From the NCBI RefSeq assembly GCF_947077775.1, contig NZ_CAMTTE010000001.1, positions 186,001 to 250,000 of the forward strand: DNA of 64,000 bases. The letters run 5' to 3'. Shown in pieces: positions 21,594 to 26,047 of the stretch. The notes under the pieces were generated by a model. It was given only the letters and a program-made list of their open reading frames with translations. It was not told where the DNA came from and made no database searches. The position numbers were made by a program, and so were the translations under genes. The stretch comes from Salinibacter pepae. Its GTDB lineage: Bacteria; Bacteroidota; Rhodothermia; Rhodothermales; Salinibacteraceae. Position 1 is the first letter of the stretch, and each line of letters opens with the position of its first letter.

Positions 21594-22481
21594 CTACGCC
21601 TGGGCCGGCGGCACCTGCACGAAGGTGTTGTCGATAAGACGCGTCTCACCAAAGAAAACTGCTACGGCGGCCAGCACCTCCTGCCCGGGCACGAGGTGGT
21701 CGACGGGCTGAAGGGTGTGGGCGTCCACGACCTCTGCGTACTGCACATCCGCGTCGGGGGCCGCCGCGAGTTTATTTTGCATCGCTCCAACAACACCTTC
21801 CGCCGCCTGTTCCCCCCCTTCGATCGCCTCTTCGGCGGCGGTGACGGCCGCGTACAGCACCGTCGCCTGCTCTCGCTCTTCGGCGTCGAGGTACTCGTTC
21901 CGGGACGACTGCGCGAGGCCGTCGGGCTCCCGCACGGTCGGCACGCCCACAATTTCAATGTCGAAGAGCAGGTCCTCCACGAGGCGCTGGAGGATGACGT
22001 ACTGCTGGGCGTCCTTGCGGCCGAAGACCGCCACGTCGGGCTTGCAGGCGTGGACGAGCTTGGTCACGACGGTGGTGACCCCCCGAAAGTGCCCCTCGCG
22101 GTACGCGCCACAGAGATGCTCGTCGAGCCGCTCCACGTCGACCCACGCGAGAGGGCCGGGCAGGGCCTCGTCGTCGGCATAGGGATACATCTCTTCAACC
22201 GACGGCGCAAACATTGCGTCCACGTCGAGCGCCTCCAGCGTCTCCCGGTCGCCCTCCAGATCGCGCGGGTAGTCGTCGTAGTCTTCGCCCGGCCCAAACT
22301 GAGTGGGATTCACAAAGACAGAGACGGTCACGTGGTCGGCCTCGGTCAGGGCCCGGCGCACGAGCGCCAGGTGTCCCTCGTGCAGGGCCCCCAAGGTCGG
22401 CACGAGGGCGAGCGTTTGTCCCTCGGCCCGGGCCGCGTCGGCCTGGGCCTGCATGGCGTCAACGGTGCGAAGCAGTTCCAT
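21594..22481 (-). CDS. panC: pantothenate synthetase
   Basis: A 295-residue ligase joining pantoate and beta-alanine using ATP. The HIGH-like HEGH motif is at 34-37 after VPTLGAL. FVNPTQFGPGEDYDDYPRDLEGD, VDVERLDEHLCGAYREGHFRGV (nucleotide and pantoate binding) and FGRKDAQQYVI are conserved. The ATG at 22481 gives the usual N-terminus; the open frame extends 85 codons further upstream but is not family-like. First gene of the panC-panD pair. Confidence 0.95.
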   Translation of the reverse strand: MELLRTVDAMQAQADAARAEGQTLALVPTLGALHEGHLALVRRALTEADHVTVSVFVNPTQFGPGEDYDDYPRDLEGDRETLEALDVDAMFAPSVEEMYPYADDEALPGPLAWVDVERLDEHLCGAYREGHFRGVTTVVTKLVHACKPDVAVFGRKDAQQYVILQRLVEDLLFDIEIVGVPTVREPDGLAQSSRNEYLDAEEREQATVLYAAVTAAEEAIEGGEQAAEGVVGAMQNKLAAAPDADVQYAEVVDAHTLQPVDHLVPGQEVLAAVAVFFGETRLIDNTFVQVPPAQA

Positions 22482-23074
22482 CGGCGGGCGCGTCGGGTTG
22501 GTGTACGAGACTGCAAACAGATGCCGCACGGGGCTACGGAGCCACGCCCATCTAGTTCGTGCCCCACGGTGTGGCCGCCAGGCCCGTCTTCCCCTGCACG
22601 AAGCCCCCGGCAGTAGGCGCCTCTCGATTCCTCTGCGGCCCTCTTCCGAAGTGTGACGGCCCGCGTGCAGGCCGCCGCTGGGCGGGGGATGTGAACGACG
22701 GGGCACGCATGGAGCGGTTAGGCGTCCACTGTGCACGCCGCACCCCCGATGCCGTGGAGGCCCACACGTCTAGAAACGGCGCGCCCGTCTTTGAGGCCAA
22801 CTCCGGCCGGATCCACTCGGGTTGGGGGGCATGATCGAGATGCAGACCCGTGCAATCACGGCCAAAGACAGAGAGACGGCCCAGGGATTGTCTCCACCCT
22901 TCCAGGGGAGCGGCTGCAGGACACCGAGTCCCAACAGGTTTCTCAACCCTGTCCCGCACGCACCCGGTGGCGCAGAGCAGGCCCGCATGCCACGAGGGTT
23001 GGCGTGGGGGCCCGGTGGCAATCGCCGGGGCAGTGGCAGGCCCACATACTTGTTCTCGGGGAAGCAAACGGCGG
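22482..23074. other. intergenic region between panC and tRNA-Leu, no gene recognised
   Basis: About 590 bases. Several open frames cross it, but all look like high-GC noise, and those on the minus strand run straight into the tRNA. I looked for tmRNA, SRP RNA, RNase P and 6S landmarks and saw none. It presumably holds the panC promoter (minus strand) and the 3' trailer of the intron-bearing tRNA transcript. Confidence 0.5.
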
Positions 23075-23354
23075 TACCGGGGGTGGGACTCGAACCCACA
23101 CGGGCCACAAGGCCCAACGGATTTTCGTACCACTCCAATTTTCATTGGTGGGGCGTGGTCTGGACTTTCTCTTCACCGTATCCGGCCGGACGTAGGTGCT
23201 GCCCGTCAAGTCTCTGCACCTTCCCGAGGTCGGGCTTGGCTCAGGATTACCAGTCAAAAGGCTTCCCTGACTTTGAGCAGATCTACGTGAGGCGTTTCCG
23301 CCCCAGCACTCATTTGTCTAAGTCCGTTGCGTCTACCAATTCCGCCACCCCGGC
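23075..23354 (-). tRNA. tRNA-Leu(UAA), interrupted by a group I intron
   Basis: The 5' exon is 23354-23320 (35 nt) and the 3' exon 23125-23075 (51 nt). The acceptor stem pairs GCCGGGG with CCCCGGU (the 1-72 pair is G-U); the discriminator is A and CCA is not encoded. The D-arm has the Leu-typical GGAAUUGGUAGACGC. The anticodon stem is ACGGA/UCCGU, and the spliced loop CUUAAAA gives anticodon UAA. The long variable arm GGGCC-UUGU-GGCCC marks a class II tRNA, and the T-arm is GUGGG-UUCGAGU-CCCAC. The intron lies between U34 and A35. It is the only tRNA I found in the window and decodes UUA, a rare codon in this GC-rich genome. Confidence 0.96.
23126..23319 (-). ncRNA. group I intron (IC3-like, cyanobacterial tRNA-Leu type), 194 nt
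   Basis: The intron follows U34 of the tRNA and ends in the conserved G (23126). P1 is CUU of the 5' exon paired with GAG after an 8-nt loop, giving the U-G pair at the splice site. P4 pairs UCAGG (from 23270) with CCUGA, next to AAUCCUGAGCCAAGCC. The R element GGUGCAGAGACUUGACGGG (23220-23202) and S element AAGAGAAAGUCC (23173-23162) form P7 (GACUU/AAGUC) and the G-binding site. These blocks match what I remember of the Anabaena tRNA-Leu(UAA) intron. There is no room for a homing endonuclease. Confidence 0.95.
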
Positions 23355-23752: not shown

Positions 23753-26047
23753 ATGCCGAAACGCGGTGATGGAGCCCTCAGCGACCAGTCGAAAACAGTC
23801 CCTGAAGCCGGGGCGGCCTCTGCGGACCCATCGCTGACCGAACAGGCTGTCGAGGCGTTTGGCGTCGTCCAGCAGCGCGTGGACCGGGACGTGAGCCCCG
23901 AGCGCCTCCGCGGGTTTCTGCAGGTGAAGACGGTCACCCCGGACACCATCCTCGGCCTTCTGGCCGACTACGGCCGCGCTCGTGGACTGGTGATGAAGCC
24001 CCAGTCCCTGTCGCCCTCCGATGTGCTGAAGGAAGCAGCCCCCGGCGATGTGGTGCTCATGCCGGACCGGAGTCTGGGGGTGGTTGAGGAGACCCGCGCC
24101 AGCGTCCTGTCCGTCCGCAGCTTTGGGCAGGACGAGGTGCGACGCGTGGGCCCGGACGCCCTGGCTGGGCCCGACGGGACGGTGTCGTTTCTCCACATCG
24201 AAGGGGAAACGCCTCATTTTCTCGACAGCGAACGGCAGTCCTCGTCGGGCTCGGGCATCCGGTCGGCGGAATACATCCACGACCCGCACGACCACCGCGA
24301 GAACATCCAGGAGACCTTCGCCAGTCTCCTCAGCCTACTCAGCGACGAGGGCAAGGACCTCGTCACGGTGGCGGTCTACGCCGCCATGGTGGCCATCTTT
24401 TCGCTCACGGTGCCCCTCGCGTCGCAGGGCATCATCGACTCGGTGTCGCTGGGGACGTTCACCAATCAGATCGTGGTGCTGTGCGTCGCAATCACCGTGG
24501 GACTCCTGCTGTACGGGGGCTTCGACATCCTGAAATACTACACGGTGGACATGCTGCAGCGTCGCCTCTTTGCCTCCACCTCCATGGAGATGGCCTACCG
24601 GCTGCCCCTCATGAAACGGTCGGAGCTGGAAGGAGAGTACGGCCCGGCCCTGGTCAACCGGTTCTTCGACGTGGTCTCGATGCAGAAGAGCCTGTCGAAA
24701 ATTCTCCTCGACGGGATGGTGTACGCGCTCATCGCGCTGGTGAGCCTCATTCTACTCACGGTCTACAGTTCGTTTTTCCTAATTGTCGGCCTGATGGCCG
24801 TCCTGTTCACCCCAGTGCTCATCTGGGGCCTGGGACGACGCGGCCTGCGAACGAGCATCGAACAGTCGAGCTTCAAGTACGCCACCGCCCACTGGTTGGA
24901 AGACCTCGCCCGGTGTCAGCAGAGCTTCAAGCTGAACGGATCCCCGTCGTACGTGCACGACCGCACCGACCGGCTCGCCTCCGACTACGTTCGGGCGCGC
25001 GGCAACCACTTCCGCATTTTTGGGCGTCAGCTCGCGGCCGCGGCGGCCTTCCGGGCCATCATCGTCGGGCTCGCCCTCGGAATCGGCGGGTACCTGGTCA
25101 CGCAGGGCGACATCACGCTCGGCCAGTTCGTCGCCGCGGAGCTCCTGATCGTATACCTCACCAACAACGGCTTCAACCTGGTCCAGCTGTTCGCGTCCGG
25201 CTACGACCTGCTGACGGCCATCAGCAAGATCCTGCACGTGACCGAGAAGCCCCTGGAGGAGGTCGGCGGGGAGGAGGTGCCCTCCGGCTCCGGCCCCGCC
25301 CCGCTTAGGGTGCGCAACGTGACCATCGGGTACAAGGACGCCTCGCCGGCACTCAGTGACGTCTCGTTCGACGTAGCGCCGGGCGACCACCTGTGCATCG
25401 TCGGGGACAGCGGGGCCGGCAAAACGACCCTCACGCAGGCCCTCGTGCGGATGCACACCCCCGATCAGGGACAGATCACGTTCGACGGACACGACATCGC
25501 CCGCCTCGACCCGCAGGCATACCGGAGCGTCGTGGGCCTGGCCCTGTCCAACGACGAGCTGTTCAAGGGCACGGTGGAGGAGAACATCACCATGGGCCGC
25601 TCGCTGAGCTACGCCGCCGTGGAGCAGGCCCTCCACCTGGCCTGCCTCGAAGACGCCATCCTGGACCTTCCCGACGGACTGCAGACGCCCATCACGTCCG
25701 CGGGCCTCGGGCTGCCACAGGGCATGGTCCGGCGCATCATGATCGCGCGGGCGGTGATCGGGGATCCCCGACTGCTGATCCTGGACGAGCCGTTCAACGG
25801 CATCGAGGACCCGGTGAAGCAGACCCTCGCCGACCGCCTGTACGGGCACGACGCGTGGACCATCGTCTCCGCGGCCGACGACAACCCGACGGCCGTGCGC
25901 CGGGCCGATCAGGTACTCGTGCTGGAGCAGGGCGAAATCGTGTGGCGGGGCGCGGCGGATCAGCTGAACGGCGAGTCCGACGACTTCCTGCGGCGCCACT
26001 TTCCGCGCCTCGTCTCGACGGTGCAGGGAGACGGGGTCCCGTCCTAA
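23753..26047 (+). CDS. type I secretion-like ABC exporter with degenerate nucleotide-binding domain
   Basis: 764 residues in three parts. An N-terminal region (to about 150) resembles a C39-like peptidase domain without the catalytic Cys. A six-helix exporter domain spans about 200-490. The C-terminal ATPase has intact Walker A GDSGAGKTT (about 550-558) and Walker B LLILDEPF (about 674-681). The Q-loop Gln is replaced (GLALSNDELF), the signature LSGGQ reads LPQGM (about 654), and the H-loop His is replaced (IVSAADD, about 704-710). First gene of an exporter-adaptor-channel operon. The start ATG 23753 is the best fit; a short open frame from ATG 23719 overlaps it in another frame. Confidence 0.88.
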   Translation: MPKRGDGALSDQSKTVPEAGAASADPSLTEQAVEAFGVVQQRVDRDVSPERLRGFLQVKTVTPDTILGLLADYGRARGLVMKPQSLSPSDVLKEAAPGDVVLMPDRSLGVVEETRASVLSVRSFGQDEVRRVGPDALAGPDGTVSFLHIEGETPHFLDSERQSSSGSGIRSAEYIHDPHDHRENIQETFASLLSLLSDEGKDLVTVAVYAAMVAIFSLTVPLASQGIIDSVSLGTFTNQIVVLCVAITVGLLLYGGFDILKYYTVDMLQRRLFASTSMEMAYRLPLMKRSELEGEYGPALVNRFFDVVSMQKSLSKILLDGMVYALIALVSLILLTVYSSFFLIVGLMAVLFTPVLIWGLGRRGLRTSIEQSSFKYATAHWLEDLARCQQSFKLNGSPSYVHDRTDRLASDYVRARGNHFRIFGRQLAAAAAFRAIIVGLALGIGGYLVTQGDITLGQFVAAELLIVYLTNNGFNLVQLFASGYDLLTAISKILHVTEKPLEEVGGEEVPSGSGPAPLRVRNVTIGYKDASPALSDVSFDVAPGDHLCIVGDSGAGKTTLTQALVRMHTPDQGQITFDGHDIARLDPQAYRSVVGLALSNDELFKGTVEENITMGRSLSYAAVEQALHLACLEDAILDLPDGLQTPITSAGLGLPQGMVRRIMIARAVIGDPRLLILDEPFNGIEDPVKQTLADRLYGHDAWTIVSAADDNPTAVRRADQVLVLEQGEIVWRGAADQLNGESDDFLRRHFPRLVSTVQGDGVPS

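Follow-up and report, generated by a model that had tools for sequence, protein, structure and literature searches.

The tRNA-Leu(UAA) gene described here, the sole gene for this tRNA that we found in its Salinibacter host genome, very likely harbors a working group I intron that splices itself and lacks an endonuclease; this intron (type A) would be ancestral to four Salinibacter species, and another intron (type B) would have entered the genus separately. The position and the structure of the intron are conserved, a search of the host genome found no second copy of the gene, and relatives carry empty sites. An earlier reading of the same DNA, made from the sequence only, had recognised a group I intron in the tRNA-Leu(UAA) gene of a Salinibacter-like genome, at the position long known for this tRNA, and in this it was right.

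The interrupted tRNA-Leu(UAA) gene

In the sequence, the gene begins at 23354 and ends at 23075 of the minus strand (280 nt including the intron), in a window of 64 kb, by which we mean the whole stretch of DNA that was analysed. The gene and its neighbours are arranged as follows:

21594..22736, minus strand: panC-like gene on one side of the tRNA gene; its start in the ORF list is a GTG at 22736
23075..23125, minus strand: 3' exon of tRNA-Leu(UAA), 51 nt, beginning with AAAAUCCG; A35, A36, A37 and A38, and the anticodon 3' stem
23126..23319, minus strand: group I intron, type A, 194 nt, without an ORF; P1-P9 core and terminal G; the same as L001:1494-1687
23320..23354, minus strand: 5' exon of tRNA-Leu(UAA), 35 nt; acceptor strand, D-arm, anticodon 5' stem, and C32, U33 and U34; ends in CUU
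23753..26047, plus strand: ABC-transporter-like gene on the other side of the tRNA gene

We take the ORF at 21594..22736 (minus strand) to be panC, the gene for pantothenate synthetase, and the ORF at 23753..26047 (plus strand) to encode an ABC transporter; the true start of the panC-like gene probably lies further in than the GTG at 22736. According to the sequence and the comparison of spliced exons, the 3' exon further holds the long variable arm, the T-arm, the acceptor strand and A73, and the CCA end is not encoded. A long variable arm and A73 are identity features expected of a tRNA-Leu. Joining the exons in silico gives an anticodon loop of C-U-U-A-A-A-A with the anticodon UAA, in agreement with the complete spliced tRNA, UAA anticodon and long variable arm of the earlier reading.

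Relatives carry the gene uninterrupted, with GGACTT followed directly by AAAATCCG; the junction therefore lies between U34 and A35, and the sequence and the empty-site alleles together confirm that a 194-nt intron splits the tRNA at this bond. cmscan matched the group I intron family RF00028 to 23133-23329 on the minus strand with 55.2 bits (E 2.8e-11, model positions 1-253 of 253), a score above the curated cut-off of 50 bits. RF00028 was the single family above threshold when the 64-kb window was scanned against all of Rfam, and the tRNA-Leu(UAA) intron alone matched it at E 0.001 or better in the host genome, a count that may omit introns missed by the model. Read from the sequence and the empty-site boundaries, the 5' splice site is marked by a U-G pair of P1 with an 8-nt loop and the intron ends in a terminal G; P4 is UCAGG/CCUGA, and the P7 pairing is present. 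These elements agree, in the sequence and in the list of pairs, with their first description. As had been noted before, no endonuclease is encoded in the intron; neither the sequence nor the ORF list reveals one, and 194 nt leave no room for such an ORF. Type A may belong to subgroup IC3, given its likeness to introns of that subgroup.

ARAGORN with default settings called no tRNA anywhere in the 64-kb window, and with an intron allowed it mis-spliced the tRNA-Leu(UAA) gene as Ser(aga). One could assume that the interrupted gene is an inert relic and that UUA codons are read by another tRNA. The failure of ARAGORN to see the gene at default settings fits this assumption, as does the rarity of UUA, which accounts for 6/1733 leucine codons in 46 ORFs of the window (chosen by length and codon-position GC) and implies a low demand for tRNA-Leu(UAA). 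However, another intact tRNA-Leu(UAA) gene was looked for in the host genome (3.63 Mb, 99.97% complete) and none was found, either by an exact search for the D-arm or with the intron-less junction pattern at one mismatch. The five exact matches to the tRNA-Leu D-arm are the UAA gene and the CAA, UAG, CAG and GAG genes, and the junction pattern meets the UAG gene only. Moreover, comparison of spliced exons gives 96.6-100% identity between the host gene and its counterparts in the other three type-A species, and the helices are conserved. An inert relic is hardly credible to us. As the only UAA gene found, the interrupted gene should be needed for UUA codons, and since no other such gene was found, the intron very probably self-splices.

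Transcription and splicing, as we infer them, would take a simple course: the pre-tRNA would be transcribed, the intron would fold into the P3-P9 core and bind guanosine, and after a cut behind U34 at the P1 U-G pair, U34 would be joined to A35 and the intron would leave with its terminal G. A mature tRNA-Leu(UAA) reads UUA and, by the decoding rule, probably UUG.

Conservation of the secondary structure

The pairs of P2, P3, P4, P5, P6, P6a, P7, P8 and P9 were read from the type-A intron (L001) and followed through alignment A1, which contains 51 tRNA-Leu introns, 50 of them distinct. These 51 come from the 64 listed of 80 introns that do not exceed 235 nt; the 13 left out measure 225-233 nt. 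Across the 50 distinct introns, standard pairs fill 94.7% of 2436 cells, against a shuffled mean of 86.7%, and pairing falls to 30-47% when the partner is slid. Both-sided changes occur in 21/50 pairs, and on each of five measures 0/500 shuffles reached the observed value. The helices P2-P9 have strong covariation support in the homologues, with P6 and P7 invariant, so that covariation does not test these two. The exceptions are one P5 pair, unpaired in 41/50 rows, two pairs in the base stem of P9, unpaired in 18 and 23 of the 50 rows, and one further P9 pair, unpaired in 17.

The four type-A introns vary at 5/100 paired and 17/93 unpaired positions in 193 gap-free columns (Fisher p 0.0056). 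Of the five changes at paired positions, two turn the pair into A-C, both of them in G062. MFE folding of the intron alone, which cannot form the P3/P7 pseudoknot, gave an energy that is not unusual (z -1.31; 18/200 shuffles were as good).

Presence and absence of the intron in Salinibacter

An intron is present in G000, G062, G063, G066, G067 and G071. Four Salinibacter species carry type A, two others carry the clearly different type B at the same bond, and at least six are intron-less. Exact uninterrupted UAA junctions were found in G064, G065, G068, G069, G072 and G073 of the same genus and in sister genera, and G070 (62% complete) was assigned neither an intron nor an empty site. With one mismatch allowed, the intron-less junction pattern matched 99/114 genomes of the order; among the places listed, many of the one-mismatch matches fall on genes with the anticodon UAG or CAA. 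Among the eight other genera of the family, six have a readable UAA gene, intron-less in every case, and two gave no match.

The species tree is based on a single marker, the PhoH-like gene, from 26 genomes of the family. In this tree the type-A species are united in a clade (100/100) with three intron-less species as its sister group, and the type-B pair forms a clade (91/94) inside a larger one that also holds three intron-less species and G070. Two changes suffice to explain the distribution of the introns on this tree, and two separate gains are the simplest history. The spliced exon nearest to those of type A comes from the intron-less G069 (93.1% of 87 nt), which speaks for an intron that entered a native gene.

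As for the neighbouring genes, panC adjoins the type-A gene in all four species, and the ABC-transporter gene lies beside it in three of them; the flank retrieved for G062 gave no match to the transporter gene. In eight further Salinibacter genomes the surroundings of panC, out to ~1.5 kb, contain no Leu tRNA D-arm motif, so the gene must have moved in one group or the other. A locus shared by the type-A gene and the intron-less gene of the sister species was considered and rejected; synteny places the two differently.

Alternatively, the intron could be ancestral in Salinibacter, or in the Rhodothermales, and have been lost repeatedly, with types A and B as its diverged descendants. The two types share one bond, and the AU test does not reject a grouping of type A with type B (p 0.36 for the core tree and 0.222 for the full-intron tree, both described below). 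However, an ancestral intron would need one gain and several clean losses in place of two gains, and the readable gene is intron-less in the six other genera mentioned above. The likeness between the types points the same way: the mean full-intron identity of the host intron to type B (74.8% of aligned sites, n=2) is no higher than that to proteobacterial (76.2%, n=91) or acidobacterial introns (77.2%, n=13). We consider an ancestral intron with repeated loss unlikely. Under the reading with two gains, type A would have been inserted into a tRNA gene of native type in the common ancestor of the four species that carry it, and type B, a different intron, would have entered the same bond separately in two others. 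Candidate routes are reverse splicing, or homing with an endonuclease that was later lost or supplied in trans, then recombination.

Relationship to other tRNA-Leu introns

The sequence-only reading had called the intron cyanobacterial-type. Type A does resemble the cyanobacterial tRNA-Leu(UAA) introns in its tRNA, in the bond between U34 and A35, in core organisation, in small size and in RF00028 membership; it differs from them in its P1/P2, P3 and P9 motifs, in its Salinibacter host and in its patchy distribution within one genus. With the alphaproteobacterial and acidobacterial introns (L089-L206) it shares the bond, the motifs in P1/P2, P3 and P9 and a like length, mostly 200-250 nt in those introns, and identity to them reaches 82.9%, whereas its P9 region is shorter, its exon is Rhodothermales-like and CCA is not encoded.

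The motifs in question were chosen after the sequences had been seen. The P3' motif GGGC[AG]G is present in 4/4 type-A, 86/91 proteobacterial and 13/13 acidobacterial introns and in 0/3 chloroflexal, 0/18 cyanobacterial and 0/2 type-B introns. GAGTGC near the 5' end has a similar distribution (type A 4/4, proteobacterial 83/91, acidobacterial 10/13, chloroflexal 0/3, cyanobacterial 0/18, type B 1/2), and AGTCC[AG]GACC occurs in 3/4 type-A, 87/91 proteobacterial, 13/13 acidobacterial and 3/3 chloroflexal introns, against 0/18 cyanobacterial and 0/2 type-B ones. Conversely, the cyanobacterial AGTCCAAT is found in 16/18 cyanobacterial introns and in no others (type A 0/4, proteobacterial 0/91, acidobacterial 0/13, chloroflexal 0/3, type B 0/2), and each of the three cyanobacterial motifs, for P1/P2, P3 and P9, is found in 0/4 type-A introns. 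Mean identity of the host intron to the cyanobacterial introns is 73.2% (n=18 rows, which hold one genome twice, as L208 and L128). The best identities are 82.9% for proteobacterial, 81.8% for acidobacterial, 78.0% for type-B and 77.7% for cyanobacterial introns, and an intron from another Bacteroidota genome (L272) reaches 81.3% of 193 sites. The motifs make it likely, short of proof, that type A is allied with tRNA-Leu introns of Proteobacteria, Acidobacteria and this one other Bacteroidota genome, and not with those of cyanobacteria.

Phylogenies were calculated from a core alignment of 168 rows, from which the duplicates L031, L178 and L208 and identical cores had been dropped. The core tree for the AU test uses 70 of these rows, with the Ile (L002) and Asn (L005) introns omitted for their long branches, and the full-intron tree has 63 rows, with groups capped at random. 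The trees are unrooted, and their 131-203 columns are few, with paired columns not independent. In the 70-row core tree, one branch (95/97) has type A on the same side as the proteobacterial, acidobacterial, tRNA-Arg and chloroflexal introns, with the cyanobacterial, fMet and type-B introns on the other; the tree does not unite the type-A introns in a resolved clade, and such a clade is present in 88% of bootstrap trees. A quick tree of all 168 rows places the fMet rows on the other side of the matching branch (93). In the full-intron tree, cyanobacterial and type-B rows are separated from type A and the rest (100/97), and the next branch sets type A, type B and the cyanobacterial rows against the rest (91/85). 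Type A is the branch nearest to the cyanobacterial introns in the unrooted trees, and because the 91/85 branch stands in an unrooted tree, the side on which the donor of type A lies depends on the root. The Arg and fMet introns form groups of their own. At p 0.05 the AU test rejects none of the groupings tried; the lowest value is p 0.0807, for type A with the fMet introns of the Rhodothermales.

These trees bear on the possibility that type A was transferred from a cyanobacterium, which would account for the same tRNA and the same bond. A grouping of type A with cyanobacteria has AU values of p 0.353 in the core tree and 0.275 in the full-intron tree, type A, type B and the cyanobacteria lie together on one side of the 91/85 branch, and type B itself groups with the cyanobacterial rows (100/97). 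However, the type-A introns possess none of the three cyanobacterial motifs, each of the three proteobacterial ones is present in three or four of the four, and the best identities of type A to proteobacterial, acidobacterial and Bacteroidota introns all exceed that to the cyanobacterial introns. We regard transfer from a cyanobacterium as distinctly unlikely. The label cyanobacterial-type is in our view wrong, or at best too narrow: P1/P2, P3 and P9 are proteobacterial/acidobacterial in kind, the cyanobacterial motifs score 0/3, and the trees disfavour a cyanobacterial placement, though the AU test does not reject it.

Group I introns in other lineages and genes

A scan of species genomes with the tRNA-Leu 5' exon and a core pattern found at least 118 loci; eight of the loci gave no full intron by the exon pattern. 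Judged by record title, most of the matches listed are from Alphaproteobacteria, followed by Acidobacteria; also among those listed are three Chloroflexi (Litorilinea twice, and Caldilineaceae) and isolated examples from other groups, including Salinibacter altiplanensis. Position 26 had to be A or G in the pattern. Cyanobacterial tRNA-Leu generally has T at this position, so the scan under-counts cyanobacteria by design. Vepritskiy and colleagues are said to have described, in 2002, a tRNA-Leu intron of a gamma-proteobacterium. In an even draw of 289 Alphaproteobacteria, six genomes, including the centre genome, match a wider exact pattern, and 33 of 98 genomes drawn from the cyanobacterial phylum have an RF00028 match of any kind. 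A sample of the phylum Bacteroidota yielded RF00028 in 29/394 genomes, ten of them outside the Rhodothermales, and among the 11 loci read from those ten the one in G441 (L272, above) is a tRNA-Leu(UAA) intron. Taken together, the scan, the phylum sample and the draw of Alphaproteobacteria reveal that outside cyanobacteria the tRNA-Leu intron is widespread but sporadic. The earlier statement that this position is known from cyanobacteria and plastids thus holds for the bond, which is the same, but not as a restriction, since the loci listed in the scan, at least 118, are mostly alphaproteobacterial; its choice between horizontal transfer and an older, wider spread was the correct frame. No phage carrier was seen: a scan of viral contigs with the tRNA-Leu intron pattern gave no matches.

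Within the Rhodothermales, RF00028 matches occur in 31/114 genomes, with up to three per genome. The flanks of the fetched loci identify the hosts in the order as tRNA-Leu(UAA), tRNA-Arg, tRNA-fMet, one tRNA-Ile2, one tRNA-Asn and 23S rRNA, and in five further loci the host is apparently tRNA-Lys(UUU). As read by eye, the introns in Arg(UCU), fMet, Ile2(CAU), Asn(GUU) and Lys(UUU) genes share RF00028 membership and, where aligned, core and order with type A; they differ from it in lying in other tRNAs and mostly at other bonds. Where exactly the Arg, fMet, Asn, Ile and Lys introns are inserted was judged by eye and is less certain.

The tRNA-Arg introns, apparently in UCU genes and after U36, belong to families f3 and f4 (L003, L004, L006-L009, L012, L015-L018, L023, L027, L069, L072, L083) and often share a genome with fMet introns. 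The latter apparently lie between U33 and C34 and have a long P1 extension (L010, L013, L024, L025, L070, L071, L073-L080, L082); further fMet introns are L268, L270 and the cyanobacterial L233 and L235. The aligned fMet introns of Rhodothermales and cyanobacteria group together in the 70-row core tree (96/90). A third intron of such genomes is found in family f3 (L081, L084, L085, L087, L088), in an apparent tRNA-Lys(UUU); it seems to separate U34 from U35, a bond that corresponds structurally to that of the tRNA-Leu insertion. Apparent tRNA-Asn(GUU) introns are L005 (G092), L264 and L265.

Some of the loci contain reading frames. Two related introns of other Bacteroidota genomes have HNH-like frames within them or just in front: in L264 the frame lies upstream of the intron core, and in L275 (G380), an intron in a tRNA-Leu gene with the anticodon UAA or CAA, perhaps inserted between U33 and U34, it is an ORF before the core. 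Pfam gives HNH_3 at E 3.2e-5 and HNH at E 4e-4 for these frames, both just below the curated cut-offs. Judged by their flanks, L026, L028-L030, L086, L267, L269 and L274 are 23S rRNA introns from Rhodothermales and other Bacteroidota, and the intron of L267 contains a 149-aa ORF.

L014 (G080:C38) is a second tRNA-Leu(UAA) gene with an intron and an encoded CCA in a genome that has an intact native gene elsewhere. Its exon is alphaproteobacteria-like (94.2% of 86 nt). It may be an imported gene or a binning error, the latter being possible in view of the low GC of the locus (0.435 vs 0.594), and it carries no weight in our argument.

Discussion

Group I introns in tRNA genes are known from cyanobacteria, alpha- and beta-proteobacteria and plastids, and the tRNA-Leu(UAA) family has been described as the more ancestral one, common to cyanobacteria and plastids (PMC4033280). 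The paper on tRNAscan-SE 2.0 reports fMet and Ile2 genes with group I introns, which the program was not designed to detect (PMC8450103). Another review mentions neither Bacteroid- nor Salinibacter; a paper of 2002 on the horizontal transfer of the tRNA-Leu(UAA) intron is among its references (PMC3984707). PMC4071816 deals with inteins. For Salinibacter, one group I intron is already in print: a published table lists it for the nrdA gene of S. ruber DSM 13855 (PMC3019208). It is from the same genus as type A but sits in a protein-coding gene, and it is not among the RF00028 matches of our order scan. Among titles and the beginnings of abstracts, in a coverage that excludes most subscription journals, we found no report of a tRNA intron in Salinibacter or in Bacteroidetes/Bacteroidota, including the tRNA-Leu one described here.

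UUA is almost absent from the GC-rich genes, so splicing of tRNA-Leu(UAA) could, by analogy, act as a switch for the few genes that bear this codon. A comparable switch for UUA-bearing genes is bldA in Streptomyces. More broadly, we put forward as a tentative idea, about which we are rather doubtful, that the tRNA-Leu(UAA) introns, instead of being a cyanobacterial relic passed down vertically, are a bacteria-wide family that re-enters one bond without an endonuclease and did so twice in Salinibacter, type A coming from a proteobacterial/acidobacterial branch and type B from a branch to the cyanobacteria.

In the literature the tRNA-Leu(UAA) intron counts as ancient in cyanobacteria and plastids (PMC4033280). 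Given its wide spread outside cyanobacteria, it should not be taken for a cyanobacterial signature. ARAGORN, a standard tRNA finder, missed or mis-spliced the gene described here. The interest of the Salinibacter case lies in the patchy and seemingly repeated entry into one bond, together with the corrected cyanobacterial label. With two dissimilar introns at the same bond, and with close relatives whose sites are cleanly empty, the genus offers a young system for testing gain, loss and the route of entry.
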